The translations under genes and the position numbers were made by a program. 64,000 nucleotides of DNA from Nitrososphaerota archaeon (GTDB lineage: Archaea; Thermoproteota; Nitrososphaeria; Nitrososphaerales; JACQRY01), in NCBI GenBank assembly GCA_016184315.1, contig JACPCU010000017.1, forward strand, positions 1 through 64,000, written 5' to 3'. The notes beneath the pieces are model-generated. The model made no database searches, was not told the DNA's origin, and worked only from the letters and a program-made list of their open reading frames with translations. Of the stretch, positions 8,537 through 64,000 are shown piece after piece (the first letter of the stretch is position 1; every line of letters starts with the position of its first letter).

Positions 8537-8685
8537 ATCCGCTCATGCTTCCGAAAACTGAGTTAATTAACTTGAATGTTCCCGTGGAAAGCCCTAAACT
8601 TGAACGGAACAGCAGATGTATGACATCAAATAAGATCTGGCATAGGTCTCACCTGCTACTTGTCTTGCTACTGTTCACTCTTAGA

Positions 8686-10047: not shown

Positions 10048-10101
10048 CATAAGGCAATACGAGCACATATCCAGAATTAAAGTTAACCTAACGCTGTATC
10101 T

Positions 10102-23088: not shown

Positions 23089-23305
23089 GATGTTAGGTTT
23101 GGATGATGCGGCTTCCTTATATGGAGTCGCCCCTATGGTTCTGATGATTCTTCAGGGTAGGACTGTTTATCCTAGCTGGACGGTAGACCCTCCCCTTCCA
23201 ACATTAACTTCAACATGCTGGTGAATAGCCCGCGGAGTTAATCAGAAACGCCTCCATGCTTCTCTTTAACCACCGACAGTCATGGCAGCCGCGGGAAGAT
23301 TAGCC

Positions 23306-23461
23306 TTAAGCTAGCCCCCACTGCTTGAGACGCTCAGCGCCGACTATCTTGACCTGATCTTCAGACAGGAGGTCACCGCAGTCCTTGTGATAGGGCACAA
23401 AAGCGTGGCCAGAACCCCGGTAAGCAACATCCTCTATCCGAACAGTCTTACACTTGCACAC
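23306..23461 (-). CDS. Putative 51-residue Cys/His microprotein
   Basis: A GTG-started frame opens with M-C-K-C-K and later has Y-H-K-D-C-G-D-L, giving a CxC plus HxxC set that could bind one metal. The C-terminus is amphipathic. GTG is the only usable start after an in-frame TAA. No SD is seen; an AT-rich TATA-like stretch lies about 45 nt upstream. It fills an otherwise empty gap between the isochorismatase and molybdenum hydroxylase genes. No family is recognised. Confidence 0.42.
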   Translation of the reverse strand: MCKCKTVRIEDVAYRGSGHAFVPYHKDCGDLLSEDQVKIVGAERLKQWGLA

Positions 23462-23680
23462 AGCTGCGCAGCACCAATGGTCCGATTAACGCCCCGATGC
23501 GCCTAGATAAGTTTTGCAATCAAGGTTTTGATGACTCTTCGGGCCACGGAAAGCTTTCTTGATGGACTGTTTATGTTGCAAGGGGTGTTCCAGTGTTCTA
23601 CAGGGACGATACGTCAGTACCATCGAGAGTCATCCCAATTCAACCAAAGTTAAAGCAAATATGTCTGCTAACAGAGCGTC

Positions 23681-25993: not shown

Positions 25994-26072
25994 CCAGTTG
26001 TTGATCTACTTCGGTGTAAGTTAAAAGCAAGTCATCATCAAAGCTGGTGTCAAGAAGAGGATGGGGTAGTGT

Positions 26073-26852
26073 ATGAGTAGAGAGATGACTCTTCTGGATC
26101 ACATCGACGAGCTCCGCGCCCGCCTCGTCAGAATCATAGCTGCCATAACCATAGTAATAGCTGCAACTTTCACTCTCAGCCTGAAGGAATTCACCTTCGG
26201 TGACACGAAGCTGATTCTTCCCTATCCTGATCCCTCTCTGAACATCTCAAGCCAGCTTATCGCCAAGCTCCGCGACGACCTGCTTCCTCGAAACGTCGAG
26301 TTGATCGTGACTGCTCCGGGGCAAGCCCTTCTTTCACAGCTGCAGGTCTCCCTTTTTCTCGGCGTGATACTGAGTATGCCGGTGATCATCTGGGAGGTCA
26401 TTCGGTTCATTGGTCCAGCTCTTTACCCCAGTGAAAGAAAGCTTATCGCCAAGATCCTTCTGCCGGCCACTGCGCTTTTCGCTGCCGGCGTATTGTTCTC
26501 TTACTTCTATATGACGCCCTTCACCATTAGATTCCTGTATGATTATGCTGCCCCTATGGTCACCAGACAGTTCATCACTATTGATGAGTTGATAGGCTTC
26601 ACATTGCTGTTCCTTGTGGCCTTCGGATTGTCCTTCCAACTCCCGATAGTCATGTGGGCTGTCACTCGCGCAGGAATAGTGGACAAGGAGTTTTGGCGCA
26701 GAAACTTTAGCTACGCAGTTATAGCCTTCGTGGTCTACGGTGCAGTGGTTACTCCTGATGGGAGCGGATACACCATGTTTTTCGTGGCGATACCTATGAT
26801 TCTTCTCTACGGTGCTACATACCTCTTTCTCAGACGAGTCAAACCCCTGTGA
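26073..26852 (+). CDS. tatC: Sec-independent protein translocase subunit TatC
   Basis: The product has 259 residues with six membrane helices. The N-terminal signature H-I-D-E-L-R-A-R-L, which reads the twin-Arg signal, is intact. Helix 5-6 has V-T-P-D-G-S-G and A-I-P-M-I-L-L-Y. It would form the substrate-recognition core of the Tat export channel. It lies 80 nt after the molybdenum hydroxylase large subunit and 46 nt before the FAD subunit on the same strand. No tatA is seen in the window, and none of the three hydroxylase subunits shows a twin-Arg signal. Confidence 0.92.
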   Translation: MSREMTLLDHIDELRARLVRIIAAITIVIAATFTLSLKEFTFGDTKLILPYPDPSLNISSQLIAKLRDDLLPRNVELIVTAPGQALLSQLQVSLFLGVILSMPVIIWEVIRFIGPALYPSERKLIAKILLPATALFAAGVLFSYFYMTPFTIRFLYDYAAPMVTRQFITIDELIGFTLLFLVAFGLSFQLPIVMWAVTRAGIVDKEFWRRNFSYAVIAFVVYGAVVTPDGSGYTMFFVAIPMILLYGATYLFLRRVKPL

Positions 26853-26897
26853 CGCTATGCCACGCCTGCGGAGCGAAAGATATATCAATAGTTCCCA

Positions 26898-27782
26898 ATG
26901 TTCACACTGTTCAACATGATTCCTCGCGCCTTCGAGTATTATGCTCCCGCATCAGTTTCAGAAGCCCTATCTCTCCTCCAGAAGTACGGAGATGAGTCCA
27001 AAGTCTTGGCGGGCGGCCAGAGCTTGGTGCCACTCATGAAGCTCAGGCTGGTAAGTCCTGCTCACATCATAGACATTGGGAGGATCCCAGGGCTAAGCTA
27101 CATCAAGGAGGAAGACAACAAGATCCGCATAGGGGCATTAACTACTCACCATGAGGTTGAGACCTCGCCAGTGGTGAAGTCTAAGTGTATGGTGCTTTCC
27201 GAAGCGGAGAGCCACGTAGGCGACCAGCAGGTGAGAAACCGTGGAACAATCGGTGGAAGCGCGTGCCACGCAGACCCTGCTGCTGACGTCCCATCTGTGC
27301 TAGTAGCGTTGGATGCTGAGTTCAAGATGACAGGATCTTCAGGCGACAGAGTTGTAGACGCAAGAAACTTCTTCCAAGACATCTTCACAACAGATCTCCG
27401 TCAAAACGAAATCTTAGCGGAGATCACTGTTCCCGCGTTGCCTCCTCGCAGCGGAAGCACATACTTGAAGTTCGAGAGAGGCGCAGGAGACTTCGCCATA
27501 GTTGCGGTCGCAGCAGCGGTCACCCTTGATCAAGCAGGCGTATGCCAAGATGTTCGCCTAGGGCTTGCCGGCGTTGAGTCGATTCCTCTTCGAGCCTTGA
27601 AGGCTGAAGAAGCCCTGAAGGGCAAGAAGCCTGATGACAACGCTATTCTTGAAGCAGCAGCTAGAGCGTCAGAGCAGTCTAAGCCCAGCTCCGATATCAG
27701 GGGAAGCGCCGAATACAAGAAGGAAATGGTCAAAGTTTTCGTGAAAAGAGCGTTGAAGACGGCCCTTAGCAGGGTATCCTAG
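26898..27782 (+). CDS. Molybdenum hydroxylase FAD-binding medium subunit (CoxM-like)
   Basis: The product has 294 residues. FAD-binding motifs of the vanillyl-alcohol-oxidase-type fold are present: A-G-G-Q-S-L-V-P near residue 40 and N-R-G-T-I-G-G-S near 113. The C-terminal CO dehydrogenase flavoprotein domain follows. An ATG six codons later (M-I-P-R-A-F-E-Y) matches the family start better. It transfers electrons from the 2Fe-2S subunit to an acceptor. The operon order is large, tatC, medium, small. Confidence 0.92.
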   Translation: MFTLFNMIPRAFEYYAPASVSEALSLLQKYGDESKVLAGGQSLVPLMKLRLVSPAHIIDIGRIPGLSYIKEEDNKIRIGALTTHHEVETSPVVKSKCMVLSEAESHVGDQQVRNRGTIGGSACHADPAADVPSVLVALDAEFKMTGSSGDRVVDARNFFQDIFTTDLRQNEILAEITVPALPPRSGSTYLKFERGAGDFAIVAVAAAVTLDQAGVCQDVRLGLAGVESIPLRALKAEEALKGKKPDDNAILEAAARASEQSKPSSDIRGSAEYKKEMVKVFVKRALKTALSRVS

Positions 27783-27796
27783 ACAGAGGGTTAGAG

Positions 27797-28282
27797 ATGA
27801 AACAGGTCTCTACCACCATCAACGGTCAGAAATACGTGGGTAATGCTGAGCCTAGGACACTATTAGTATACTTCCTGCGTGACGAGCTCGGACTGACTGG
27901 CACGCACATAGGGTGCGTGGTGGGGAAGTGCGGCGCATGCTCCATAATCGTTGACGGGAAAGTGGTAAAGTCATGCATGATGTTCGCGAATCAAGCAGAA
28001 GGAGCAGATATACTAACAGTTGAAGGATTAGCTCAGGGCTCGAAGCTGCACCCGATACAAGAAGCTTTCTGGGAGAACCACGGGTTGCAGTGCGGCTACT
28101 GCACTCCAGGGATGCTCATGGCGTCATATTACCTCCTCAAAGAAAATCCCAAGCCCACTGAGGAAGAGATCAGGAGAGGTATAGCAGGGAACCTATGTAT
28201 GTGTACAGGCTACGTAAACATAGTCAAAGCCATCAAAGCCGCTTCTGAGAAGATGCAGGCTGGCGGTCAAAGCCAGAAATAA
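27797..28282 (+). CDS. Molybdenum hydroxylase 2Fe-2S small subunit (CoxS-like)
   Basis: The product has 161 residues. The plant-type ferredoxin cluster ligands occur in G-C-V-V-G-K-C-G-A-C with a fourth Cys about 20 residues later. The second cluster occurs in Q-C-G-Y-C-T-P-G-M and G-N-L-C-M-C-T-G-Y (Met where most homologues have Arg). It shuttles electrons between the Mo centre and FAD. It follows the FAD subunit at 14 nt and closes the operon. It is 95 nt upstream of cofE. Confidence 0.94.
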   Translation: MKQVSTTINGQKYVGNAEPRTLLVYFLRDELGLTGTHIGCVVGKCGACSIIVDGKVVKSCMMFANQAEGADILTVEGLAQGSKLHPIQEAFWENHGLQCGYCTPGMLMASYYLLKENPKPTEEEIRRGIAGNLCMCTGYVNIVKAIKAASEKMQAGGQSQK

Positions 28283-46199: not shown

Positions 46200-47018
46200 T
46201 CAGAGATTTTCAACTGTCAGCTCGGCTAGCTTCTTCTTGATCTGCTCGCAGATGGTTTCTGCTGGCCACCCGAAGATGTGCTCAAGGTTTCTTCGTAGAA
46301 GCGTAGGCTCCTCCAGAATCTTGTCTAGAGACGCTTCTTCGCCATACGATAATCTTAGATTTGAAAGATGCGCCAAGACTGTTTGGGCGCCTCCGTCCCC
46401 GAAGATCTCTGAGAGCGTTCTCTTAACTGCGACGGGTATTAGCTTCCCAGGTTCTTCCAGAGGCATGTTCTTGACTCCGACTACGGACGAATGGCAGAGG
46501 AGCAGCTTGGCGAAAACCTCGAAATCATATGCCTGAGGCAACTCATACATGCACAGTGTGGTGGCCCCTATAGATAGGTCATCGTAGGCTTTGTCGCACT
46601 CCACCAGTTTCCTAACATAGCTGGGTTCATGACCGTGAAAAGTGACGTCGACCGCTCTAAGTCCTGTGAATCCCTTGTCCAACGCCTTCTTGAAAGCCTC
46701 ATCAAACGAGGAGAGTACTTCCCGGACTTGGAAATCAGGCGGATAGACGCTATTCGATGGAAGTATACGCAGTGAACCTTTCTCTTCAAGTTCCTTGACG
46801 GAGACATCTAGCACTTCTTGCAGCTCAGCTTTGACTTCGTTAGGGGGATCGTTGGTGATTAGGATATTTGCTTCTCCCTTTTCTAGACCGTCTTTGATGA
46901 ATCCGAATATCAAGCCGTGATCGGTTACAAACCCCGGCCTAAAGACACCCATTACATGCGAGCCCTGGGGAAGATTTCTCCAGTAAGAATTGGTTGTCGC
47001 CATGTCTTCAGCGCTCAT
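46200..47018 (-). CDS. MEDS-domain (DcmR-type sensory) protein
   Basis: The product has 272 residues. The first 190 residues match the MEDS sensory fold: G-S-H-V-M-G-V-F, L-I-F-G-F-I-K-D-G-L-E-K-G-E-A-N-I-L-I-T, and later T-T-L-C-M-Y-E-L-P-Q-A. The C-terminal 70 residues (L-S-E-I-F-G-D-G-G-A to the end) are helical and may bind a partner; no HTH is evident. MEDS domains are thought to sense hydrocarbon derivatives or act within archaeal signalling. A lone regulator or sensor here. Confidence 0.82.
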   Translation of the reverse strand: MSAEDMATTNSYWRNLPQGSHVMGVFRPGFVTDHGLIFGFIKDGLEKGEANILITNDPPNEVKAELQEVLDVSVKELEEKGSLRILPSNSVYPPDFQVREVLSSFDEAFKKALDKGFTGLRAVDVTFHGHEPSYVRKLVECDKAYDDLSIGATTLCMYELPQAYDFEVFAKLLLCHSSVVGVKNMPLEEPGKLIPVAVKRTLSEIFGDGGAQTVLAHLSNLRLSYGEEASLDKILEEPTLLRRNLEHIFGWPAETICEQIKKKLAELTVENL

Positions 47019-50911: not shown

Positions 50912-52057
50912 TTAGGGCTTCTTCTGTGGCCGTAGCGCTTCTAGCTCCTTTGCCAGTTCTTCAGGAACAGGATTTTCTCCACGTATGTGACCATCGTATT
51001 CCTTTGCCAGTTCTCTTGCCTGTTCCTCTTGGTAAGTCTGGAGTCTCGGGTAGCCACTCGGTGGCAGGAACTTTAGCCCTGTTCCCTTAATGTCGGTAAT
51101 CTTGTCTAGGGCCTGTCTGACCATGTAGTCCTCGAGTTCTCGACATAGTCTTTCTGCGATATTGATATCACGATATATCGCTGTGCATAGACCGACTGCG
51201 CTTGCACCCAACATCAAGGACTTGATTACGTCTTCCCATGTATGGATCCCCCCTGAGACCTCGATGTCTTTTCCGGTGTTAAGACGAGCCATGTCCGCCA
51301 ATACTCTGAAGGAAAGAATTGACATTGCTCGCCCCGAAGTCTTACTGTAGACTCGCTTTCCAGTGTAGACATTGATGTCAAGGGTTTGAGCGTTGCCGCC
51401 AACGCAAAAACAGTCCAGGTATTGACCATACTTAAAGATCAGATCTGGCTGTCCGAAGTATCTTTGGACGACTGTCTTCGGCATTATCGGTATGTCTACA
51501 GCGTCTTTGATAGCCTTCAGTACTTCAGCCAATCTGTCTGCTTCTTCAGACCACCAGCCGCCGAGCCTATCATATCCTCTGCCTGGATAAATGATTTCTC
51601 GAAAGACTCTAGCGCTGGCGCACCCAAAGTCACAGTGGATAGCGGCCGCCCCAGCTTTTTCAAATTCTCTTGCGATCATGGCAGCCTCGTTGGCAGTGCG
51701 AGGAGAGAGGCTTCCGAATATGTACGCGTTCAGGTTGTCTGCCAAAGGCTTACTCGACTTGATGAATTCAGCCATCTTCTTGTAGCCAGGATTCATGAGA
51801 GATTCTGTACCCTCGAGCGTATGATGATCATCGTCTCCCACCCAATAGCAACGAGGTTGGGGGGTTGCTTCCCAGCGTCTGGGGTATCCAGCCATTGGAT
51901 CCCATGTTGTCGATTTTGTACAAATAGCTGCTAGACCAGACTTTAGTAGTCTTCTGATGCTCCATTCATTTATGGCGTACCCTGCCGCTTCAGCTATCAG
52001 CGGATTTTTCAGTTCCAGGCCGCATAGATTGACGCTTAGGTCGGCTTCTAGTTCCAT
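50912..52057 (-). CDS. Dihydroorotate dehydrogenase/PreA-like FMN oxidoreductase
   Basis: The product has 381 residues. Typical TIM-barrel FMN motifs: L-K-N-P-L-I-A-E-A-A-G near residue 16, I-P-I-M-P-K-T-V near 192, V-S-G-G-I-H-T-W-E-D-V near 272 and G-A-S-A-V-G-L-C-T near 288. It resembles the PreA subunit of dihydropyrimidine dehydrogenase more than PyrD in its tail region. No PreT partner is present. It opens the presumed catabolic island; a dihydropyrimidinase-like gene lies 8.6 kb away. Ring reduction of a pyrimidine-like compound is the natural guess. Confidence 0.82.
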   Translation of the reverse strand: MELEADLSVNLCGLELKNPLIAEAAGYAINEWSIRRLLKSGLAAICTKSTTWDPMAGYPRRWEATPQPRCYWVGDDDHHTLEGTESLMNPGYKKMAEFIKSSKPLADNLNAYIFGSLSPRTANEAAMIAREFEKAGAAAIHCDFGCASARVFREIIYPGRGYDRLGGWWSEEADRLAEVLKAIKDAVDIPIMPKTVVQRYFGQPDLIFKYGQYLDCFCVGGNAQTLDINVYTGKRVYSKTSGRAMSILSFRVLADMARLNTGKDIEVSGGIHTWEDVIKSLMLGASAVGLCTAIYRDINIAERLCRELEDYMVRQALDKITDIKGTGLKFLPPSGYPRLQTYQEEQARELAKEYDGHIRGENPVPEELAKELEALRPQKKP

Positions 52058-52286
52058 GAAACAGAAGTCATCACGGCGCTATAAATTAGTTCTCCTGTAC
52101 AGTTCTGTTACATTTGTTCGAGATTGGGTTGATGATCACGCTCGCTTTGGTCAGCATCCCAAATCAATGCAACAGAATCTCCTGTAAGCAGTTATCAGAG
52201 TCATAACTGGCTATCTCGTTGACCCTCTAGAATAGTGCGTCTAAATAGCGGTGTAGGGTGGCAGGTTTTTCCACGTTCGCATGGAC

Positions 52287-53075
52287 TCAATACTTATGAA
52301 CGATTTTTGAGCCCATAATCGTATAACCCATGGAGAAGTAGCATCCTCCTTCGACTTTTCTTGGTTGTAGCCGTGTTAGCTCTTCGTTCTCAGATTCGCC
52401 AAACGATAATGTGGCGTCACCAACCCATATGTTGGCTACTTTCTGATTTGCAAGATCCAGCTTTACAAGCTCGTTTACTGAGGGACGTTCGCCTGGCTGC
52501 AGATTAGGGAAATGCCTTATGTTGTAAGATGTGCCGAGCTTCGGAACGTCTTGAAGAGTGCCTTGCTTTTTTATCTTGATAGTTGCTTTGAGTACCCTGT
52601 CGCCTAATCTCTCCACTATGCCGGTTAGACCCGTTCCGACGCCGAATGGTTTCAAGGCGGGGTTGAGTGGGTGGAGTTTCGTAAGGTAGATTCTTGCAAT
52701 CTTCTTGGGCAGCCCTTGAAACCAGCCTCTCATCATGGACCAGTCTTGATTCACCCACATAGCTGTCACGAAGATTGCAGGCTCATCTTTGTATCTACAT
52801 TCTAGGACTACGCCACCTTCCATGTATAGTGTTCCAGCTGGATTGGTGTACACCATGTCACGGTTCTTATCTCCGACTGAGACTATTTCGGTGACGTATG
52901 CGTAGCCAATGGGTTCTGGGGCGGGGGTTAGAGGCTCTGGCAACCTCTCTCTTATTGCCTCTTCATCTGATCTAAACTTAACAAATATTGAGTCAGAACC
53001 ATAATGCCAAGGAAGCTCATCAATAAGCGACGCTTTACCTTGAGGAGAAAGCGGCAGACAATAACCCTTTAACAT
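52287..53075 (-). CDS. Acetoacetate decarboxylase-family protein (copy 1)
   Basis: The product has 262 residues. The family motif around the Schiff-base lysine is present as G-L-P-K-K-I-A (about 137-143). The preceding Glu of the true decarboxylase (R-E-x-x-G-F-P-K-K) is not conserved: the protein has R-G-W-F-Q-G. The end has G-Y-T-I-M-G-S-K-I-V. It could be a decarboxylase, or one of the many family members that do aldol, dehydratase or cyclase chemistry. It is adjacent (21 nt) to a second copy. Confidence 0.82.
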   Translation of the reverse strand: MLKGYCLPLSPQGKASLIDELPWHYGSDSIFVKFRSDEEAIRERLPEPLTPAPEPIGYAYVTEIVSVGDKNRDMVYTNPAGTLYMEGGVVLECRYKDEPAIFVTAMWVNQDWSMMRGWFQGLPKKIARIYLTKLHPLNPALKPFGVGTGLTGIVERLGDRVLKATIKIKKQGTLQDVPKLGTSYNIRHFPNLQPGERPSVNELVKLDLANQKVANIWVGDATLSFGESENEELTRLQPRKVEGGCYFSMGYTIMGSKIVHKY

Positions 53076-53096
53076 GTTCCTGTCATCCCCATTTCT

Positions 53097-53891
53097 CTAG
53101 TATACATGAACGACTTTTCCGCCTACAACCGAATATCCCATGCTAAGAAACGCTCCATCCTCAACCTTTTTCGGTTGCAGAGGCAAGAGCTCCTCATTTT
53201 CGGACTTACCAAAGGAAAGAGCCCCCTTACCAACCCATATGTCTCCAACCCTCTGGTTAGCTAACATTGAGTATACCAGATCATGAATTGCGGGTGGCCC
53301 GGAGAAGTCAATATTTGGAAAATGTCTAAGAGCGAAGAAGTTGCCCAATTTCGGTAGGTCAGAAGGAGAGCCTTTCTTTTTGATCTCAAGCCCGAGCGTT
53401 AGTAGCCTGTCGCCCTGTCTCTCAACAATACCTCCAAGTTTCGTACCTATTCCAAGCGGCTTCAGCTTCGGATTCAGTGGATGAATCCATGTCATATATA
53501 TCTTGGCGATCTTCTTTGCCAGCCCTTGTATCCACCCCCTTATCATAGCCCAGTCTTGATCTACCCAGATAGCTGGGACGAATAGGGAAGGTTCGTCTTT
53601 GTATTGGCAGGTTAAGATAACTCCGCATTCCATGTAATGTGTCATTGCGGGATTAGCGAAGACCGCGTCAACATCTTTGTCCCCCACTGACATGATGTTT
53701 GCTACATAGGCCATTGCTAAGTCTGGCTCGCGGCCCGGCTCAAGAGGTGGTGGCAACCATTCTCTTATGACTTTCTCATCAGCTCTGAATTTGATGAAAA
53801 GCCAATCTGAGCCATAGTGATATGGTGGATCAGGAAGAATAGCAGCTTTGCCGCTTGGGGATAAAGGGTGGCAGTAGCCCTTGAGATTCAA
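53097..53891 (-). CDS. Acetoacetate decarboxylase-family protein (copy 2)
   Basis: The product has 264 residues, paralogous along its whole length to copy 1 (same start M-x-L-K-G-Y-C, same end pattern G-G-K-V-V-H-V-Y). The Lys site reads G-L-A-K-K-I-A, Ala replacing Pro. Two diverged copies in tandem suggest a heteromer or two sequential steps. Upstream is the ABC transporter, divergent by about 170 nt. Confidence 0.82.
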   Translation of the reverse strand: MNLKGYCHPLSPSGKAAILPDPPYHYGSDWLFIKFRADEKVIREWLPPPLEPGREPDLAMAYVANIMSVGDKDVDAVFANPAMTHYMECGVILTCQYKDEPSLFVPAIWVDQDWAMIRGWIQGLAKKIAKIYMTWIHPLNPKLKPLGIGTKLGGIVERQGDRLLTLGLEIKKKGSPSDLPKLGNFFALRHFPNIDFSGPPAIHDLVYSMLANQRVGDIWVGKGALSFGKSENEELLPLQPKKVEDGAFLSMGYSVVGGKVVHVY

Positions 53892-54059
53892 GCTGAATTT
53901 TTGTCCCTGCTGACCGCTTAGATAAGGTTGCTGGGGTCCTCTAGAATAGCTTTTATTTTGTATACCCTTGACAAGTGTTTATAGTAGTCTGGAGTTTGCA
54001 TGTTCTTGGGCTCGGATGACTAACGCAGGTTGTTCTAGCGTGAGAATGAGGAGATCAAA

Positions 54060-55663
54060 CTGAATCTCCGTTTCGTTGCCATTCTTCTTCTAATCGCTGT
54101 CGTGGCCTTTCTAACTGTTTGGCCGGCGCTTTACCTTGTCTTTTCGAGCTTTAACAAGGTCACCATTCCGGGCAGCATGGAGTTTGAGTTCACGCTGGAT
54201 CATTATTTTGATATCTTCCGAATCCAAGGCCAAAGCGAAAGATTCACTAAGAGTCTGGTTAATACAACAACTTACACCGTACTCAAGACTTTACTCTCCT
54301 TGCTGATAGGTGGTTCACTGGCTTGGCTAGTTGCTAGAACAAACATACAATTCAAGAGATTCATCATGTTCTCTGTACTAGTCCCAAATCTACTGCCAGG
54401 TACAATGACTGCGATGGGATGGGTGTTCCTCTTGAGTCCGAGGTCTGGCTTAGTCAACGAAGTCGCAAAAAACTGGCTAGGTGCTCCAGTGTTCGATGTT
54501 TACACCATTTGGGGTGTGATTTCTCTGGGCGTACTTTGGACCTTTCCTCTAGACTTCCTAATCTTATATCCAGCTTTCAAATCGATGAATCCAGAGCTGG
54601 AGGAATCGTCCCGTATGATGGGTGACAGTACTGTCGGAACTCTCAGACGGATAACTCTACCAATGATGACTACGACATATATGACATGGTTGCGCGCACC
54701 TATCCTCCGAACTATGCATACGGATTCGTCCTCTCAACAATCATATTATCATTCTCGATCATCTTGATCATCCTTTACAGAAGAGCAACAAAACTAACCT
54801 CCAAATATGTTACAGTCACAGGCAAAGCCCCTAGACCCAAGACGATAGACTTGGGACGATGGAAATATGTGGTAACAGTTATCGTTCTTGTTTTCTTAGC
54901 TTTCATGTCGTATTCACCTGCAGTTTTAGCAGTCATAGAGTCTCTGACGCCTTTCGCATCAGCATATGGACCTGAAACGTTGACAAGACTTACGTTGAAG
55001 AATTACGCGACAGTCATCAGTGATGCTAGATTTGCAGGAATAGTCTCGAACACTGTATTCATGGCGATTATTGCAGCTGTCGCATGTCTTCTACTTGCCC
55101 TTGTAGTGGGATACCTCGCTGTTAGAACCAAGGGGAAGAGCGGAGCCGTCCTTCACGTGGCCTCCACCTTCCCGTTGGCCTTACCGGGAGCAGTAATTGG
55201 TACATCTTTGTTGTGGACCTTTGCAACAACTCCGATTTATGGCACCATGTGGATATTGATCTTCGGTTTGATCATCAAGAACCTCCCATTTGGGATCGCC
55301 TTGAGTGTTCAGGGGATGTATCAAGTTGGCTACGAGCTGGAGGAGTGTTCAAGGATGTGTGGAGCCTCTTGGGTGGGTACATTTAGACGAATTATGGTCC
55401 CATTGCTGCGAGCGTCGATATTCTCCAGTCTTTTCTATCTTCTCATAAGATCCCTTGGAGAGCTCGAAGTAGTTCTCCTGCTTCGGGGAACGGAAAGTGA
55501 AGTCCTGTCGACATGGCTATACACGGAATGGGCTACTGGTTCTGCGAGGCTGGCCAGTGCCATGGCTGTGATCATCATGATAGTCAATGTTGCACTCTAC
55601 CTAGCCACCAGAGGAGCTGAGCATCGAGGAAAGGGAGCTACCGCGGAGGCAATGAAGCCTTGA
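54060..55663 (+). pseudogene. ABC transporter permease (two-half, iron/thiamine type), internally deleted and frameshifted
   Basis: The first half (frame to 54767) has a permease domain with its cytoplasmic loop L-E-E-S-S-R-M-M-G-D near 54595. Straight after L-P-M-M-T-T the frame ends in nonsense. A second frame begins Y-D-M-V-A-R-T-Y-P-P-N-Y near 54675-54715 and gives the complete second half, with its loop L-E-E-C-S-R-M-C-G-A near 55340. In family members about 50-60 residues, including a membrane helix, separate these two points, so this looks like a deletion plus frame loss rather than a single-base error. The start is unclear: GTG 54102 lies within helix 1. No ATPase gene is in the window. 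Confidence 0.72.
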
Positions 55664-55741
55664 CACACCTGTTTATGATTCGACTCTAATTGTCTCTAAT
55701 TGTTTATCTAATGGTCAACTATTATTATTAGTTCGAAGAGT

Positions 55742-56905
55742 TTGCCAAGCCTTAACAAGCAAGCGGCCATTTTTCTGATTCTTTTCATAGCGGCTGCGGG
55801 TGTAGCAGCATACTCCTTTGCCTCTCCATCGTTAGTTTCCCCCTCGAGCTTGACTGTGACGAAAACGGTATCTGGTGTCGGACAGACTGTAACTGTTACT
55901 TCCACGAGTGTCACCACTGTTTCGGAGGTCGCTCCGGCACAAAGCTTGGAAGTGGCTGCGAAGAAAGAGGGTAAGGTTGTAGTGATGAGCCAATTCGGAA
56001 AATCCACCTACTCTGAACTCATTAACGCTTTTCAGCAAAAGTACGGAGTCGCGGTCGAATACCAAGAATTCAATACAATGGATATCCTTCCAAGGTTGAC
56101 TGCAGAATACTCTGCTGGCAAATACAACTGGGATGTGGCTCAAATGAGTGTTCCTTTTCCTCTCGACATGATCAAGGACCAGGGTTTGCTACTTCAGTAT
56201 CGCCCTGAAGCTGCCAAGGGATATGGCAAGGAACAGACGAACCCACTCGGCATGTATACGGCCAACATCTTCAGCACGTTCGGATTTGCCTATAACACAA
56301 AGAAAATTTCGCGTGAAGAAATCCAGAAGCTCGATTTGGATACTCTTGCCACTGACCTGAAGTGGAAGGGCAGACTGGCTGCGAGAGACCTAAGTGGCAG
56401 CGGAGTTGGAATACTTATCGGGCTGTACAAAGAATGGGGGGAGGAGAAGCTGACCAAGTGGCTGAAGAACCTAGCCAAGCAGAACATATTCATCCATTCC
56501 GACGACGGCGTCTTAGCCGAATCTCTTGCTAAGGGCGAATACGACGGCATACTTAACATCAACACGGCAAAGGTGGTAACCATGAAGAATGAAGGATCGC
56601 CTGTAGACTACTCGTTCGAGCTAAGAGGTCACCAGTTCGCGAGCTTCTTCGGGGTCGGTATCTTTGAAAAGGCTCCGCACCCCAATACTGCGAAGCTCTT
56701 CACTGAATACATTCTCTCGAATGAAGGAGCAACAATCCTTGGGAAGGTGCAACCTGTAGCTACGCCAGGAGTCAAAGGTGCTATTCCAGAGCTTGGCGGG
56801 GAAAAGAGAGGAAACGTCGTTATCTTGGACTCAAATCTGATCCTAACAAAGATGGGCTACATCCAAGATCTTTGGAAGAAAGCCAAGGCTGAAGCGGGGT
56901 CGTAG
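55742..56905 (+). CDS. ABC transporter substrate-binding protein (iron-type family 1)
   Basis: The product has 387 residues from a TTG start. The N-terminal hydrophobic segment (about 7-27) is a membrane anchor or signal, followed by a Ser/Thr/Val linker (L-T-V-T-K-T-V) like an archaeal S-layer-tethered binding protein. From residue about 75 it is a periplasmic-binding fold (K-V-V-V-M-S-Q-F-G-K, then Y-N-W-D-V-A-Q-M). Its class commonly binds ferric ion, sulfate, polyamine or small anions. It follows the damaged permease by 78 nt. The cognate ligand is unknown. Confidence 0.85.
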   Translation: MPSLNKQAAIFLILFIAAAGVAAYSFASPSLVSPSSLTVTKTVSGVGQTVTVTSTSVTTVSEVAPAQSLEVAAKKEGKVVVMSQFGKSTYSELINAFQQKYGVAVEYQEFNTMDILPRLTAEYSAGKYNWDVAQMSVPFPLDMIKDQGLLLQYRPEAAKGYGKEQTNPLGMYTANIFSTFGFAYNTKKISREEIQKLDLDTLATDLKWKGRLAARDLSGSGVGILIGLYKEWGEEKLTKWLKNLAKQNIFIHSDDGVLAESLAKGEYDGILNINTAKVVTMKNEGSPVDYSFELRGHQFASFFGVGIFEKAPHPNTAKLFTEYILSNEGATILGKVQPVATPGVKGAIPELGGEKRGNVVILDSNLILTKMGYIQDLWKKAKAEAGS

Positions 56906-57052
56906 GCCGGTACTAAGCTGACTGCCAACAAATGTTTACGCAAATAGGTATCAATGTGGCTCAGAATTTAGTCCGCGCCGAATAATTTTGAATTCCGTGG
57001 AACCTCATGAAACAAGATTGTGCACTGGGATCAGAGAACAGGGCACTATTAT

Positions 57053-59476
57053 CTAGTTTTCACCCTTTGCTTTCTTTACCAAGAGCAATATTCTTTCCGC
57101 GGTTATCGGGATATCCCTGATTTGAATATCGAATGGTGACAGAGCGTCCTCCACTGCATTAGCTATGGTGGCCAAGGGGCATGTTGCTGGGCCTTCGCCC
57201 AAGGGCTTCGTGCCTAGCACAGTGTATGGCGAAGGATACTCTAGGTGCACGGACTCGATGTCATTACTATCAACTGCGGTGGGCGGCAGGTAGTCCATGA
57301 AGGTCCTAGTCAGTAGTTGGCCATTCGCGTTGTATCTATGTCCCTCGCCTAAAGCAACGGATATCATGTGATTTACATTGCCATGCACTTGCCCCTCGAC
57401 TATGGCTGGGTTCACTGTGACACCAACATCATGGGCAATTACATACTTGAGGACCTTTACTTTCCCGGTTTCAATGTCAACCTCCACCGCCGCGACATGG
57501 GCCTGACCTCCGTATGTTAAGTGAGCTTTTACTCTATGCTTTTCATCTGGAAAGTCGGCGTGAGGCAATCTGTAGAAATACGTCTCATGGAGTCCTAGCT
57601 CTACATCGTTGGGCAACAGGACTTGTTTGTGATATGCAATCCACGCGATCTTTTTCAGTGACACTGACCTTTGGGTTGCGCTCTTTACGTAGGCATTGCC
57701 ATCAGCTAGTTCTATTTCTTCAGGTTTTGCGTCGAGAAAATGTGCCGCTATCTTCACAATTTTTTGCCTTACCTTTCTGGCAGCTCCGACAATTGCTCCA
57801 ATGTCAACGGCAGAATATACGTTGGCCCCGCTTCCAGAGTGGAATGTCCAAGGGCTGAAAAGCGTGTCGACTTGCTCTGTGGTATCGACGTCATCTGGGG
57901 AAACGCCCAGCTCATCTGCAACAATTTGAGAAGCAGTTGTCTCGTGACTTTGACCAGCGTTGTCCGATGCTAGCAGTACAGAAACCCTTCCTAACGGGTT
58001 CATCATGACAGTAGCTCCAGACGTCTTATCCGCTATTGCCATTGCATTCCAGTTCTTGGCTAAAAGTGCCTCTCGACCGGGGTTGGCCGCTCCTGCGTCC
58101 ACGCTACAGCCTATACCAATTCCTAGATACTTCCCTTGCCGTCTTGCTTCTTGCTGTTCCTTTCTCAAAAGCGGATACTCGAATTTTTCCAGGGCCTTTC
58201 TGAACACCTCAGGGAAATCACCGCTTTCGTATAAGTTTCCGCTTGGAGTCATGTAAGGCATTTCATTAGGCTGGATTAGGTTCTTCAGACGGATAGTATC
58301 TTGATCGATCCCTAACTTCTTAGCCGCTATATCCACCATTCTTTCAAGTACGAAAGCCATGTGTGGCTTGCCAGGTCCTCTGTCAGACCCAGTTGGAGTT
58401 GTATTGGTAGCAATCGAATAGCCCTCGAGCTCTATATTCTTGATACTATACATCCCGACAATGTTTGTAAGCTTAGCCGCAATCCAGTATCCTGCTCGTC
58501 CTGCAGCAGCTCCCTCGTCACAAATATCCCGGACCTTGAAGCCTAGTATAGTTCCGTCCTTCTTCAGGGCCATCTCAGCGTAATAGACGCCGCTGTGAGA
58601 CTGGCCTCCGCTCACCATCATGTCAGTTCTGTCTTCAATGTACTTTACTGGGCGTGCAGTCTTGATTGAGAGTAGAGCTGTAATGAACATGTCCTCACGT
58701 ATGCTATATATCGTGCCGAAGGCACCTCCTCTGTCCCCGATCCTAACTCTAATCATGTCCCCTGGAACAGGACCGATGCCTGTCTTGCCTATGCCCTCCA
58801 TGAACCTGGGGCTCCCTCCCCAGATCGTCAGAATCCCTGTCGTTGGATTATGGTAGGAGAGGATGCCGGTCAGCTCAAGCGGAGTCGAGCTGTGTCGGTG
58901 GATGCTGAACCTTTTCTTGATGACTAGGTCAGCCTGCTTAAACGCCCCTTCTAGATCCCCATACCTATAGGTCCCGCTGAGAAGAATATTGCTTCCTACT
59001 TGCTCAAACACGACTGGTGCTGATGAGCCCATAGCAACCTCAGGATCTATGACTTCAGGAAGAGGCTCATACTCTACCTGAATCAAGTCCAACGCATCCT
59101 CTGCAACTGCTTTTGTCTCTGCAGCAACAGCTGCGACAGGTTGACCTACATAGCGAACCTTGTTTGTAGCCATAACCGATTCAATCGCCTTTGTTTCTCC
59201 GGTCATGAAACCGGGCAAAGTGGCCTTGCCAGACATCTCTCGGCCAGTGAGGATCGCTACAACGCCAGTAAGCTCGGATGCACGCGTAGTATCAATCTTA
59301 CCTATTTTTGCGTGAGCATAAGGGCTCCGCAAAACTGCCACACGCAGCATCCCGTCTAGCTTCATATCATCGAGGAACATTCCACGACCGAGAAGAAATC
59401 GCCTGTCTTCCTTTCTTTTTACTCGTGCACCAATCCATTTCCTCCGAGGTAGGGATGAGTTTTCGATTGACTGCAT
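57053..59476 (-). CDS. Molybdenum hydroxylase large subunit (second copy, divergent)
   Basis: The product has 807 residues. It has the family start W-I-G-A-R-V-K-R-K-E-D-R-R-F, a cofactor loop R-G-G-A-F-G-T-I (Ala in place of the third Gly) and the Glu-containing P-L-G-E-G-P near 770. The CO dehydrogenase active-site motif is replaced by S-D-R-G-P-G-K-P. FAD and Fe-S subunits are not next to it; the ones at 26898-28282 might be shared, or others lie outside. A TATA-like stretch near 59503 gives a leaderless start. It is divergent from the ParB-like gene. Confidence 0.85.
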   Translation of the reverse strand: MQSIENSSLPRRKWIGARVKRKEDRRFLLGRGMFLDDMKLDGMLRVAVLRSPYAHAKIGKIDTTRASELTGVVAILTGREMSGKATLPGFMTGETKAIESVMATNKVRYVGQPVAAVAAETKAVAEDALDLIQVEYEPLPEVIDPEVAMGSSAPVVFEQVGSNILLSGTYRYGDLEGAFKQADLVIKKRFSIHRHSSTPLELTGILSYHNPTTGILTIWGGSPRFMEGIGKTGIGPVPGDMIRVRIGDRGGAFGTIYSIREDMFITALLSIKTARPVKYIEDRTDMMVSGGQSHSGVYYAEMALKKDGTILGFKVRDICDEGAAAGRAGYWIAAKLTNIVGMYSIKNIELEGYSIATNTTPTGSDRGPGKPHMAFVLERMVDIAAKKLGIDQDTIRLKNLIQPNEMPYMTPSGNLYESGDFPEVFRKALEKFEYPLLRKEQQEARRQGKYLGIGIGCSVDAGAANPGREALLAKNWNAMAIADKTSGATVMMNPLGRVSVLLASDNAGQSHETTASQIVADELGVSPDDVDTTEQVDTLFSPWTFHSGSGANVYSAVDIGAIVGAARKVRQKIVKIAAHFLDAKPEEIELADGNAYVKSATQRSVSLKKIAWIAYHKQVLLPNDVELGLHETYFYRLPHADFPDEKHRVKAHLTYGGQAHVAAVEVDIETGKVKVLKYVIAHDVGVTVNPAIVEGQVHGNVNHMISVALGEGHRYNANGQLLTRTFMDYLPPTAVDSNDIESVHLEYPSPYTVLGTKPLGEGPATCPLATIANAVEDALSPFDIQIRDIPITAERILLLVKKAKGEN

Positions 59477-59524
59477 TGAGTGATTCTCCCTGCCTTAAGA
59501 TATCAAACAAATTATTAAGCTACC

Positions 59525-60541
59525 TTGTTAACACTCTTGCCAATCGAAGCTTCCGAACGCTTGGTTTTGCTTTGGTCAAAGGGTTACTTTTCAGATGAGC
59601 TTATAGGGTTCCCCGAAAAAATATGGCGAAGAGGTCAGGAGATTTTGTATCGTGTGGCAAGTGTTTATGACAAAGTTGATATCGGGCTAATAAGGCCGTC
59701 GCCTCGCCAACTAAGGAAAAAGTTTCAAGCAATAGATGAGCTGGCGCAATCTATTGAAACGCATGGCTTGCTTCAACCGATTGTCGTCCGCATAATTCCA
59801 GACGGATTTGAAATTGTTGCGGGCCACAGGAGGTTTGAGGCTTGCAAGCTCCTCCACTGGCGAAAAATCCCATGCTATGTGTCAGAACTTACTGAGAAGG
59901 AGGCTTTTGAGGCATCACTGGTTGAAAATATTCAAAGAGGAGCACTAAACCCTCTTGAGGAAGCTGAGGCATACAGGAAGTTCGTCGATGATTACGGTTG
60001 GGGAGGAGTTAGCGACCTCGCAAAGCGAATCGGCAAAAGCGAAGAGTACGTGTCTCACCGAATCCTCCTGTTAAGTCTGCCTGAGGAGGTCAAAGAGCGG
60101 CTAATCAGGAATGAAATTTCTCCTAGTGTGACGCGTGAACTATTATCACTAGATAAGGAAACTGACCAAATTTACTTTGCCGAAATGGCGGCAAGCAGCC
60201 ATCTGTCCTCCAGAATGGTTCGTCAATTTGTAAAAATCGTAAGAGAAGGGTCCTCAACTGAGGAGGCTCTTAGTGGACCGGGGGAAAAAGACCCCTTTGC
60301 AATGTGGGATCAGCGCGATCTCTATTTGGAAAGACGACAGGCTACCACTCTGCGGATTCTAAAGCAAATGATCGTATCGCTACGATTGACCTTAATGAGG
60401 ATTGACGCACTGCTTGATGAAATCGATGATAACCGTTGGATCCTTAGAGATATACTTATGCATGAGAGAGTTGAATTACACCGACAGATAGATACATTTG
60501 TCCGGATGAAGTGTCGTGTAGAAGGGAGAATCAAGCGGTAA
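59525..60541 (+). CDS. ParB/Spo0J-like DNA-binding protein
   Basis: The product has 338 residues; the N-terminal 50 residues vary and a later start is possible. The ParB nuclease-like/CTPase domain shows G-L-L-Q-P-I-V-V-R, G-H-R-R-F-E-A (the arginine motif) and E-N-I-Q-R-G-A-L-N-P-L-E-E-A. A KorB-like HTH follows (S-D-L-A-K-R-I-G-K-S-E-E-Y-V-S-H-R). Residues about 245-338 are a helical tail. No ParA is nearby and no parS-like palindrome was picked out, so it may regulate the adjacent catabolic genes (noc-like or transcriptional use) rather than segregate a replicon. Confidence 0.85.
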   Translation: MLTLLPIEASERLVLLWSKGYFSDELIGFPEKIWRRGQEILYRVASVYDKVDIGLIRPSPRQLRKKFQAIDELAQSIETHGLLQPIVVRIIPDGFEIVAGHRRFEACKLLHWRKIPCYVSELTEKEAFEASLVENIQRGALNPLEEAEAYRKFVDDYGWGGVSDLAKRIGKSEEYVSHRILLLSLPEEVKERLIRNEISPSVTRELLSLDKETDQIYFAEMAASSHLSSRMVRQFVKIVREGSSTEEALSGPGEKDPFAMWDQRDLYLERRQATTLRILKQMIVSLRLTLMRIDALLDEIDDNRWILRDILMHERVELHRQIDTFVRMKCRVEGRIKR

Positions 60542-60683
60542 AGACTTTTGGCTCTCTAAAATCTCTTGGTGCAACTTTCTGGTTTTTTGCGTTCTTAATC
60601 TATTACTAGGAATTTATTGTAATCAGAACTCGAATTAACTTAAATATGTCGAAAACGCCACTTCTGCAATGCAGTGACAATGA

Positions 60684-62084
60684 ATGGCTACTGTCGATCT
60701 TGTTATACGAAACAGCACGATATGCACTTCAAAAGGCTTCATCCAAGCGGGTCTGGCTGTGAACCAAGGCAAGATCGTTGCGATAGCTAGCGATGGAAAT
60801 CTTCCCAGAGCTGACCGAAATATCGATGCCAACGGCAAGATAGTGGTTCCTGGCGCCATCGATATTCATGCCCACTTCAGAGACCCAGGCTTGACCCACA
60901 AAGAGGACTTTGAACACGGAACAAAGGCAGCCGCGGCTGGCGGAGTCACCTTTGTTCTTGACATGCCTAATACAAAACCGCCGACCAGCACCGTAGAAAG
61001 GTTCTTGGCAAAAAAAGAGGATGCTGCCAGTAAGTGCGTGGTTGACTTTTCACATCTTCCGAGCGCAAGTATTGTTAGTGAAATCCCCAAACTAGCCGAA
61101 GCAGGAGCCATAGGTTTCAAGACGTTCATGATCATCGACACTACAACTAAGTATCCGCATATGCCTGAGATAGGCATTACAGATCTGGGGCATCTGTTGG
61201 ACATATTCAAAGCGGTAGCCAAGACAGGTCTTTCTGTTACAGTGCACCCACATAACCAGGAACTCTTTTCATATGTAGCAGAGGAGATTAGGCGAGAGGG
61301 TCGAACCGATCCAGTCGCCTTCTTCGAACTAGGCTCAAGATACGATTTCTTGGCATTCACAGTCGGGACTTCCAACATCATACATATGGCGGAAGTTACA
61401 GGAGTAAGGCTGAACGAGACTCATATGTACAAGGCTAAGCAATGCGAATTGATAAAGCAAGCAAAGGACGTTTTGCCCAATCTTACCTGCGACATGCAGC
61501 CGAGTGCTCTTCTAACGACAAAGGACTTAGTAGCGAAGAAGGGGCCATACGCACTATGCCGAGGAAAAGGTCTCAACGCAGGAGATACCGAATCTCTGTG
61601 GCAATGCCTCCTTGATGGGACCATTGACATAATTTCTTCTGGTCATTCGCCACACACCAGAGCAGAGAAGGAACCTGGGTGGAAAGATGCGTGGAAGGCA
61701 CCCGGAGGTGTAGGATCAGAAATCCAGCAATACATCCCATATATGCTCACATTCGTCAATCAAGGTAAGATCTCTCTCCCTAAGCTTGTCAGTCTGATCT
61801 CTGAGAATCCTGCTAAGCTCATGAACGTATATCCAAAGAAAGGAGCCTTGCTACCAGGTTCCGACGCTGACATAGTCCTAATAGACATGCACAAGAGAAC
61901 GGTATTAAGAGATGAAGAGTGCTATTCAAAATGCGGATGGACAATATACGATGGCACTGAGGTCCAAGGCGTGCCTGTCACAACTATTGTTAGGGGAACA
62001 GTTGTAATGGAGGATGGCCAAGTGGTAGGAAAGCCGGGCTACGGCAAGTTCATCGGTCCCCTGAAGAAAGGTTCCGCCTCTTGA
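60684..62084 (+). CDS. Dihydropyrimidinase/allantoinase/dihydroorotase-like amidohydrolase
   Basis: The product has 466 residues. Metal sites: G-A-I-D-I-H-A-H-F-R-D-P-G near residue 58, carboxylated-Lys candidate G-F-K-T-F near 150, H-P-H near 190, and a late S-G-H-S-P-H with Asp-rich context. It hydrolyses a cyclic amide (hydantoin, dihydropyrimidine, allantoin or dihydroorotate). H-F-R-D-P-G resembles allantoinase and dihydroorotase; the length is nearer allantoinase or hydantoinase. A TATA-like ACTTAAATATG (60638) lies about 40 nt upstream. Convergent with the cyclase gene. Confidence 0.88.
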   Translation: MATVDLVIRNSTICTSKGFIQAGLAVNQGKIVAIASDGNLPRADRNIDANGKIVVPGAIDIHAHFRDPGLTHKEDFEHGTKAAAAGGVTFVLDMPNTKPPTSTVERFLAKKEDAASKCVVDFSHLPSASIVSEIPKLAEAGAIGFKTFMIIDTTTKYPHMPEIGITDLGHLLDIFKAVAKTGLSVTVHPHNQELFSYVAEEIRREGRTDPVAFFELGSRYDFLAFTVGTSNIIHMAEVTGVRLNETHMYKAKQCELIKQAKDVLPNLTCDMQPSALLTTKDLVAKKGPYALCRGKGLNAGDTESLWQCLLDGTIDIISSGHSPHTRAEKEPGWKDAWKAPGGVGSEIQQYIPYMLTFVNQGKISLPKLVSLISENPAKLMNVYPKKGALLPGSDADIVLIDMHKRTVLRDEECYSKCGWTIYDGTEVQGVPVTTIVRGTVVMEDGQVVGKPGYGKFIGPLKKGSAS

Positions 62085-62098
62085 GACAACTCGTAGAG

Positions 62099-62794
62099 CT
62101 AATGCTCGATGACTATCGCGCGAGTCAAAGTCGCCTCAACATCGAAAATCTTCAGAGGTAAAGCGACAAGCGTAACCTTCTTCTTCGTTATCTGATCCAG
62201 ATTGCCTACGTTCTCAATATAAAGAATATCCTTACTCATTAGATGTACAAAGAGTTCTCCCGGTAGAGGCCAAGGGAGAAAATCCGTGGTGAGAATCCTC
62301 ACCTTCTTCTCAGCCATCCAGTCTATGGCGTCCTTCGTCAACTTCGGTGAATCAATCCAGTGTTTTTGAGTTGTTCCAGCCACACCTTTGGTCCCGATCC
62401 TCTTGGTAAAATCTGTGCGAATTATAATGGAATCATTTTCGTCTACCCCCTCTTTGTCCAACTCAGAGGCTGAGATTGTCGAATGGTCCGCCTTGTAAGT
62501 CATGTTGATTACAGTCGCAGGACTGACAAATCTGTCAAGTGGATATTCGTGTATCATCTTGCCTTGCTCCAGCATGTGAGCCGGGGCCTCCACATGCGTA
62601 CCTGCATGCAGTGGAGTATGGAGCTTGCTCACCCGACGACCATTTGGCAAGGGCTGGTCCCATTTTGGAACCCATATTGGATAGATCTCGACCTTCTGCA
62701 GTATGGGTGGAAAGGCTTGATGATGAACAGAGAGTTTTCTCTCATAATCAGGCGGGCTTGGTTCAATCGGAAGACTGATATCAATTATTCTCAT
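62099..62794 (-). CDS. Cyclase-family (kynurenine formamidase-like) hydrolase
   Basis: The product has 231 residues. The zinc signature is H-A-G-T-H-V-E-A-P-A-H (HxGTHxxxPxH), with an Asp-rich start M-R-I-I-D-I-S-L-P. The family opens N-formyl amides or cyclic esters (kynurenine formamidase, isatin hydrolase). Next to a dihydropyrimidinase and a fumarylacetoacetase-family protein, it fits a ring-opening or deformylation step. Gap to the FAH gene is 11 nt, so likely one transcript. Confidence 0.86.
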   Translation of the reverse strand: MRIIDISLPIEPSPPDYERKLSVHHQAFPPILQKVEIYPIWVPKWDQPLPNGRRVSKLHTPLHAGTHVEAPAHMLEQGKMIHEYPLDRFVSPATVINMTYKADHSTISASELDKEGVDENDSIIIRTDFTKRIGTKGVAGTTQKHWIDSPKLTKDAIDWMAEKKVRILTTDFLPWPLPGELFVHLMSKDILYIENVGNLDQITKKKVTLVALPLKIFDVEATLTRAIVIEH

Positions 62795-62805
62795 ATTACT
62801 ATCTC

Positions 62806-63816
62806 CTATTTTGGAGCAACCACATAGTTTCTCAGGACTCCTATCTTCTCTATCTCTGCTTCAACAGTGTCACCAGGCTTCAGGAACCAAGTAGTATCAG
62901 GTTTGCCTGATGCGTCCCTATGTCCCAACCCCACTCCTTCACACGTTCCTCCCGTAAATATGTCGCCTGGGTAGAGGGTAATATCACGTGAGAAGTACTC
63001 TATGAACTCCGGAAACTTTCGGATCATATCGCGTGAATTACCGTTCTGTCGGATCTCGCCGTTTACTCTTGTCATCATTGTAAGATTATAGGGGTCACCG
63101 ATCTCGTCCTTGGTCGTTATGCAGGGACCCACAGGTGAGGATGTGTCAAAGTTCTTCTGCAGATAGAAGAAATTCCAGTCTTCTCTGTCGGGTTGATCCC
63201 TCGCGCTTACATCATTGAACACAGTGTATCCTACTATATACTCTTCAGCTTTGTCGGCGGGGATGTCCTTTCCCTTCTTCCCGATTATCGCTGCCAGCTC
63301 TACCTCGTAATCTAGCTCCTTCGTCTTCTTGGGATAGATAATTTCGTCATCTGGTCCGATAACTGAGGAAGCCAGCTTCAGGAAGCCCGCGGGGCGGATC
63401 ATCTGTTGAGCATGGGCCACATACTTTTCGAAACGTGTTCCTATGCCCTCCAGCATGTGAAGTGGAAAGTTTCTGCCTATGCTAATCGTCTTGTTCTTCA
63501 AGCTAGCGTAAGGCGTTCTCAGCCTAACACCGTTTTTTTGATACACTAGCTTTTCTCCTCTAGGACCCTTCAACTCCTTTGTAGAACATTCCTCCACCAC
63601 ATATCTGACTGCCTCACTTGCCGCTTGAAGTGATTCCCAGCCTCCTTCAAGAAAGCTAAGCATGTCAGCAGGCACCTTAAGACTGGCTAAAGCGTAAGGC
63701 CTTTTTTCCCCGCCCGTATTCGCCAGGTAGGCGGAATACGCAAAATTCAGATCAACGATCTGTTCATTAATTATTGCTCCTACTCTGTCAAAATCTCCAA
63801 ATTTCACAAGTTTCAT
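62806..63816 (-). CDS. Fumarylacetoacetate hydrolase-family protein
   Basis: The product has about 336 residues from the ATG at 63816, chosen because M-K-L-V-K-F-G is the family start and a TATA-like TTTTTTAATG (about 63838-63848) lies about 27 nt upstream; a longer frame to 63915 exists. Core motifs: L-D-Y-E-V-E-L-A-A-I-I-G-K-K-G, N-D-V-S-A-R-D, and G-D-I-F-T-G-G-T-C-E-G-V-G. Members hydrolyse acylpyruvates or isomerise/decarboxylate hydroxy-muconate-type acids with Mg2+. It is the likely late step of the same catabolic route. Confidence 0.9.
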   Translation of the reverse strand: MKLVKFGDFDRVGAIINEQIVDLNFAYSAYLANTGGEKRPYALASLKVPADMLSFLEGGWESLQAASEAVRYVVEECSTKELKGPRGEKLVYQKNGVRLRTPYASLKNKTISIGRNFPLHMLEGIGTRFEKYVAHAQQMIRPAGFLKLASSVIGPDDEIIYPKKTKELDYEVELAAIIGKKGKDIPADKAEEYIVGYTVFNDVSARDQPDREDWNFFYLQKNFDTSSPVGPCITTKDEIGDPYNLTMMTRVNGEIRQNGNSRDMIRKFPEFIEYFSRDITLYPGDIFTGGTCEGVGLGHRDASGKPDTTWFLKPGDTVEAEIEKIGVLRNYVVAPK

Positions 63817-63913
63817 AATCCCGTGCTGAGCGTTCACATTAAAAAACCTATTCGAGCCCCCCACTATGTCTGCGCTCAGAATCCTAATATCCTCCCGAAA
63901 TTCCTTCCTCGTC

Positions 63914-64000
63914 ATGTTCAGCGGCTATGCAGGTAGAGTTCTGCACGTAGATCTCACCAATAGCGAATCTTGGGATACGCCATTACCTTCCGATTACGCA
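63914..64000 (+). CDS. Aldehyde ferredoxin oxidoreductase, N-terminal fragment (cut by window edge)
   Basis: The first 29 codons are in the window. G-Y-A-G-R-V-L-H-V-D-L-T-N with a following P-L-P-S-D matches the start of tungsten-dependent AOR-family enzymes (G-x-x-G-x-x-L-x-V-D-L-T). It would oxidise aldehydes to acids with ferredoxin. It is divergent from the FAH gene by 97 nt. The call rests on a short segment. Confidence 0.6.
   Translation, partial: MFSGYAGRVLHVDLTNSESWDTPLPSDYA

Follow-up and report, generated by a model that had tools for sequence, protein, structure and literature searches.

Little is known of what the non-ammonia-oxidizing relatives of ammonia-oxidizing archaea use as sources of energy and nitrogen, and a dense run of catabolic genes in such an archaeon raises the question of whether it encodes a single pathway, in this case the breakdown of a cyclic amide or N-heterocycle by one catabolic island, as originally predicted. 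The run lies toward the end of the window, the whole 64-kb stretch of DNA that was analyzed, with which a 96.9-kb contig begins, in a genome of 2.02 Mb (35 contigs, 92% complete). The host order contains many 1.6-Mb genomes that, from their size and kinship, appear to be of the ammonia-oxidizer type, and the source organism is a gene-duplicating, non-ammonia-oxidizing Nitrososphaerales archaeon. Its family, JACQRY01, and UBA141 are non-AOA families of the Nitrososphaeria (PMC10833072), and the closest informative relative for comparison was a UBA141 metagenome-assembled genome (MAG; G283). A congener genome was also available but is only 70% complete, and gene absence there is therefore weak evidence.

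Units of the gene run and their conservation

The nine gene identifications in the original prediction were borne out at the family level (Pfam/NCBIfam). The genes fall into units, with boundaries inferred from strand and spacing, in the order ADC2-ADC1-flavoprotein (− strand), permease-permease-binding protein (+), Mo-hydroxylase large subunit (−), ParB-like gene (+), amidohydrolase (+), FAH-cyclase (−) and AOR-ThDP (+), and the GC profile per kilobase showed no obvious shift in composition where the island lies. The two predicted acetoacetate-decarboxylase (ADC)-fold enzymes are both present: protein 1 (52287..53075, − strand, PF06314 E 7.9e-48), which has a PKK (Schiff-base Lys) motif and 5UPB, 4ZBO and MppR as its nearest solved relatives, and its tandem duplicate, protein 2 (53097..53891, − strand, PF06314 E 2.1e-44; 60% identity between the copies). 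They share fold family and Lys motif with the acetoacetate-decarboxylase-like superfamily (MppR and bacterial relatives), but differ in forming a tandem pair of putative enzymes. Within the class sample the pair is at best 45% identical to one other archaeal homolog, and no relatives at E < 1e-15 were found in UBA141 (class sample) or in the congener.

The predicted transport genes comprise an extracellular solute-binding protein of the 2-aminoethylphosphonate/iron/thiamine type (55742..56905, + strand; PF13416, NCBIfam) and a PhnU2-type ABC permease, but no ABC ATPase gene is adjacent to them and the permease is split between two frames. Its first half (54102..54767, + strand; PF00528) matches PhnU2 profile positions 48-188 and its second half (54686..55663, + strand) positions 234-530, with about 45 profile positions unmatched between the halves, and by three-frame translation the frame breaks near 54675-54725. 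The break within 54102-55663 is either an assembly error or a pseudogene, and the transporter is probably impaired as assembled.

Of the Mo hydroxylase, only an orphan large subunit is present in the run (57053..59476, − strand; PF02738/PF20256), related to the solved CoxL and quinoline 2-oxidoreductase, and no Fe-S small or FAD medium subunit genes are adjacent to it. An assignment as the large subunit of aerobic CO dehydrogenase was rejected on its score (456 bits against an equivalog cut-off of 991), and form I CoxL by the alignment of the active-site Cys position, the motif of which we take to be the mark of that form, with a stretch devoid of Cys. Orphan large subunits without adjacent small subunits also occur on source-genome contigs C35, C7, C19, C32 and C2 and on G283:C9, while a complete Mo hydroxylase (large, medium and small subunits) lies elsewhere in the window (22405-28282), adjoining isochorismatase-like and F420-biosynthesis-like genes. 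The source genome has 11 large-subunit loci versus 4 small-subunit genes, and hence several large subunits must either have partners in common, rely on partners that escaped detection, or be without any; the corresponding numbers in UBA141 are 20 and 8. The UBA141 ortholog of the window subunit (49-50% identity) is located beside GNAT and CysRS genes, arranged and oriented as they are in the window, on an 8.7-kb contig on which no flavoprotein, ADC-fold, amidohydrolase or FAH gene was found, and from this synteny without the other island genes the window subunit is probably an older resident. Between it and the amidohydrolase, a ParB/Noc-domain protein (59525..60541, + strand; TIGR00180 139 bits, above cut-off) interrupts the catabolic genes. 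A PADLOC scan of this protein gave no strong match, just a weak one to a type II methyltransferase (17.7 bits, E 0.0003), and a MEDS-domain protein elsewhere in the window (46200-47018) had no PADLOC match.

The predicted cyclase-family and FAH-type hydrolases are both encoded at the end of the run and likely form one unit. The cyclase-family metal hydrolase (62099..62794, − strand; PF04199 E 1.6e-23) belongs to the KynB/isatin-hydrolase superfamily but matches both KynB and isatin hydrolase weakly, with 63 bits against the isatin hydrolase/kynurenine formamidase equivalog cut-off of 223 and a motif HAGTHVEAPAH in which Glu replaces the Asp of HxGTHxDxPxH. The FAH-type hydrolase (PF01557 E 2e-65, − strand) extends over 62806..63816, or from a start at 63915; its relatives align from residue 34, and the start MKLVKF at 63816 is more likely. 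The predicted tungsten-type aldehyde:ferredoxin oxidoreductase (AOR; PF01314/PF02730, + strand) is correct as to family, but nearly all of it lies beyond the window, which contains only its first ∼85 bp (63914..64000; the gene ends at contig position 65767). It is overlapped by a gene for a ThDP-dependent enzyme outside the window (contig 65721-67565; PF02775/PF02776). A route by way of isatin hydrolase and a ThDP-dependent 'isatinate decarboxylase', a presumed function of such cyclase and ThDP genes, was dropped in view of the weak isatin-hydrolase match and a literature search that gave no support. The FAH-cyclase and AOR-ThDP genes, whose link to a heterocycle is hypothetical, are probably separate carbonyl/2-oxo-acid units, with the FAH, ThDP and AOR enzymes fitting a 2-oxo-acid or acylpyruvate route equally well. 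A cyclase-family gene is also found in UBA141 (G283:C93), beside genes recognized by eye as isochorismatase-like, Asp/Glu/hydantoin-racemase-like and LLM-type.

In UBA141 and the congener no close homologs of the cyclase or ThDP enzyme were found, only distant ones, and the UBA141 FAH homolog (45% identity) is on another contig among what appear by eye to be housekeeping genes, one of them proteasome-like. With the Mo subunit syntenic on its own, the ADC pair absent, the cyclase and ThDP enzymes distant and FAH elsewhere, the set is therefore not co-conserved in the relatives examined. The gene run is best explained as a patchwork of catabolic units that are transcribed separately, and not as one pathway.

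The flavoprotein and its cyclic amidohydrolase partners

What does recur from this set is a flavoprotein together with a cyclic amidohydrolase. The flavoprotein (50912..52057, − strand, 381 aa; PF01180 E 3.8e-15), likely the last gene of the ADC2-ADC1-flavoprotein unit, was described as PreA-like, and this holds for the catalytic domain of the dihydroorotate dehydrogenase (DHOD) superfamily, which is all that it contains: no 4Fe-4S domain was found by Fe-S Pfam matching, all seven family members analyzed lack CxxC, and it scores 70 bits against the PreA model (cut-off 335). DHOD-B and dihydropyrimidine dehydrogenase (DPD) are nearest by profile comparison. Cys146 is conserved and corresponds in the alignment to Cys671, the catalytic residue of DPD, a position that reads Ala in the 1h7x sequence in the same output, while Asn609 and Asn668 of DPD correspond to an invariant Gly83 and Asp143 and the Asn736 position is variable. 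These three Asn residues (DPD numbering) we take to be those that bind the pyrimidine, and since the Fe-S domains are also missing, uracil is probably not the substrate. The lack of CxxC means that electron delivery must differ from that in PydA, PreAT and ferredoxin-type PydAc (PMC7332683). An AlphaFold model based on six sequences had a mean pLDDT of 52 and was therefore not taken into a fold search.

Four copies of the flavoprotein are found in the source genome (window, C23, C14 and C19) and two in UBA141, with no match in the other genomes among 300 sampled in the class. A GTDB-wide scan, which depends on exact seed patterns and so gives counts that are lower bounds, added at least one further MAG, and the lineages found were UBA141 and JACQRY01. 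The criteria used previously for PydA/PreA are a 4Fe-4S ferredoxin domain and a PF01979 amidohydrolase within 10 ORFs (PMC7332683). A PF01979 amidohydrolase lies within 10 ORFs of the flavoprotein at four of the six loci inspected, namely the window, C19 and both UBA141 loci, and at the latter two the genes are directly adjacent, with gaps of 66 bp (G283:C32, pair at 8190-10774) and 129 bp (G283:C18). The distances are larger on C19 (∼4.8 and 6.7 kb) and in the window, where the two genes are 8.6 kb apart on opposite strands, which counts against a module. Also against a module, no amidohydrolase is in view at C23 or C14, although C23 is near a contig end and C14 is a 12-kb contig. A rough estimate of the probability of such pairing by chance, which depends on assumed gene counts, is ∼7e-6. 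The pairing spans two families, but few genomes carry the flavoprotein, and no β-ureidopropionase-type partner is seen in the window region, both of which count against a module. The flavoprotein and cyclic amidohydrolase are nevertheless a recurrent module in a few non-ammonia-oxidizing archaea, and are the only members of the set found together repeatedly.

The window amidohydrolase (60684..62084, + strand; PF01979) is L-hydantoinase/dihydroorotase-like. The di-metal site of hydantoinases, dihydroorotases and allantoinases consists of four His, a carboxylated Lys and an Asp (PMC9863593). The family proposed by the original prediction is correct, but the enzyme does not have the full ligand set: the His and Lys positions are retained and Gly320 (codon GGT, 61641-61643) is found in place of the Asp. 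In the alignment this Asp is kept in four of four genomic paralogs and in both UBA141 partners. We infer that the window enzyme is probably impaired as assembled, which could be an assembly error, and that the window copy of the flavoprotein-amidohydrolase module may be non-functional as assembled; intact paralogs of the amidohydrolase are present elsewhere in the genome.

Dihydroorotase binds its substrate through Arg, Asn and His (PMC8659124). The corresponding motifs of the amidohydrolase are HFRDPG, MPN and GHSPH, and its score is below the dihydroorotase equivalog cut-offs. The five amidohydrolase paralogs of the source genome have 43-48% identity; the amidohydrolases score below every equivalog cut-off shown, with some exceeding that of the broad TIGR00857 subfamily. 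Given the retained dihydroorotase-type Arg and Asn, a ring that bears a carboxylate and derives from orotate, hydantoin or nicotinate would be a better guess for the substrate than uracil. The best solved match is the L-selective hydantoinase of Arthrobacter (1GKR; full length, 277 bits), from which the window copy differs by Gly at the metal-ligand Asp and by the HxHxRxPG Arg, which 1GKR lacks in that alignment. A literature search found no account of hydantoinase in heterotrophic Thaumarchaeota. Elsewhere in the source genome, on C7 (L063 16770-19930), another catabolic region has genes that, judged by eye, seem to be of the hydantoinase/oxoprolinase A and B families.

Relation to known ring-cleaving systems

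The module resembles PydA-PydB (PreA/DPD and dihydropyrimidinase) in linking a DHOD-superfamily reductase with a catalytic Cys to a PF01979 amidohydrolase. The window flavoprotein, however, is without the 4Fe-4S and NAD(P)H/FAD domains and the pyrimidine-binding Asn, and the amidohydrolase has the dihydroorotase-type Arg and Asn. The pair is most likely a lineage-specific counterpart of this reduce-then-hydrolyze module. In such a scheme an unsaturated cyclic amide or imide would be reduced at a C=C bond by the reductase and its ring amide then hydrolyzed by the amidohydrolase, in parallel with the action of PydA and PydB on uracil, and the ring, reduced before it is hydrolyzed, would be a carboxylated cyclic amide.

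The island on C19 makes a stronger case for N-heterocycle breakdown than the window does; it contains a flavoprotein paralog, two amidohydrolase paralogs, a Mo hydroxylase, RidA-family proteins, an NMT1-type transporter and an enamidase homolog (C19:53342-54526, L059 17342-18526; 2VUN, 294 bits, E 2.5e-86) that adjoins the Mo hydroxylase and the flavoprotein paralog. Enamidase is the ring-opening enzyme of nicotinate fermentation, and nicotinate-like ring cleavage is possible in the source archaeon. The anaerobic nicotinate pathway involves a Mo nicotinate dehydrogenase, 6-hydroxynicotinate reductase and enamidase, and the C19 island shares with it the enamidase homolog; the window, in contrast, has no enamidase, and its reductase is a DHOD-family protein.

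Weighing the explanations

A patchwork of units that includes a flavoprotein-amidohydrolase module, with the window amidohydrolase and the transporter impaired, is as a whole slightly more probable than its negation. It draws on observed gene families, pairing, residue changes and the lack of conservation of the set, and the order of reactions, the substrate and the impairment would follow from these. That the genes instead serve a single N-heterocycle, with Mo hydroxylation, reduction and ring opening by amidohydrolase and cyclase followed by chain degradation by the FAH, ADC-fold, ThDP and AOR enzymes, is quite unlikely: although all of the enzyme types and a transporter are found within ∼17 kb and a similar mix occurs on C19 (flavoprotein, amidohydrolases, Mo hydroxylase, transporter and enamidase), the relatives do not carry the set together, the Mo subunit keeps its synteny in the absence of the rest and lacks its other subunits locally, the amidohydrolase and permease look broken, and the ParB gene and opposite strands intervene. 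Broken genes, mixed strands, orphan subunits and poor co-conservation are also what a chance neighborhood of decaying or unrelated genes would look like, with the flavoprotein and amidohydrolase associated by coincidence in an amidohydrolase-rich genome, but such a coincidence is unlikely given the association at four of six loci in two families, twice within 130 bp.

If the pair were relatives of PyrD and PyrC in pyrimidine biosynthesis rather than catabolic enzymes, their superfamilies, their top NCBIfam scores (dihydroorotase and PyrD subfamily models) and the dihydroorotase-site Arg and Asn would be accounted for. The scores, however, are far below the PyrD and below the dihydroorotase equivalog cut-offs, the orotate/uracil-binding Asn residues are not conserved in the flavoprotein, the source genome has four flavoprotein and five amidohydrolase copies, and the window amidohydrolase is without its metal-ligand Asp, which together make this role very unlikely. 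The idea of cyclic amide or N-heterocycle breakdown thus survives for the recurrent pair and the enamidase homolog, but not for the whole set as one pathway, and the smaller, recurrent module is real and probably new in detail. A more specific proposal, which we offer tentatively and with the balance somewhat against it, is that of a new archaeal ring-cleavage module in a few non-ammonia-oxidizing Nitrososphaerales families, in which an Fe-S-free DHOD-family flavoprotein would reduce a carboxylated cyclic amide and a paired dihydroorotase/L-hydantoinase-like enzyme would open the ring, the module having been duplicated with different partners for several N-heterocycles.

The locus also serves as a warning that consecutive catabolic genes in a metagenome-assembled genome need not make up one pathway. 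Whether non-ammonia-oxidizing archaea break down N-heterocycles can be examined with specific, inexpensive enzyme assays of the lineage-restricted pair and the enamidase homolog.
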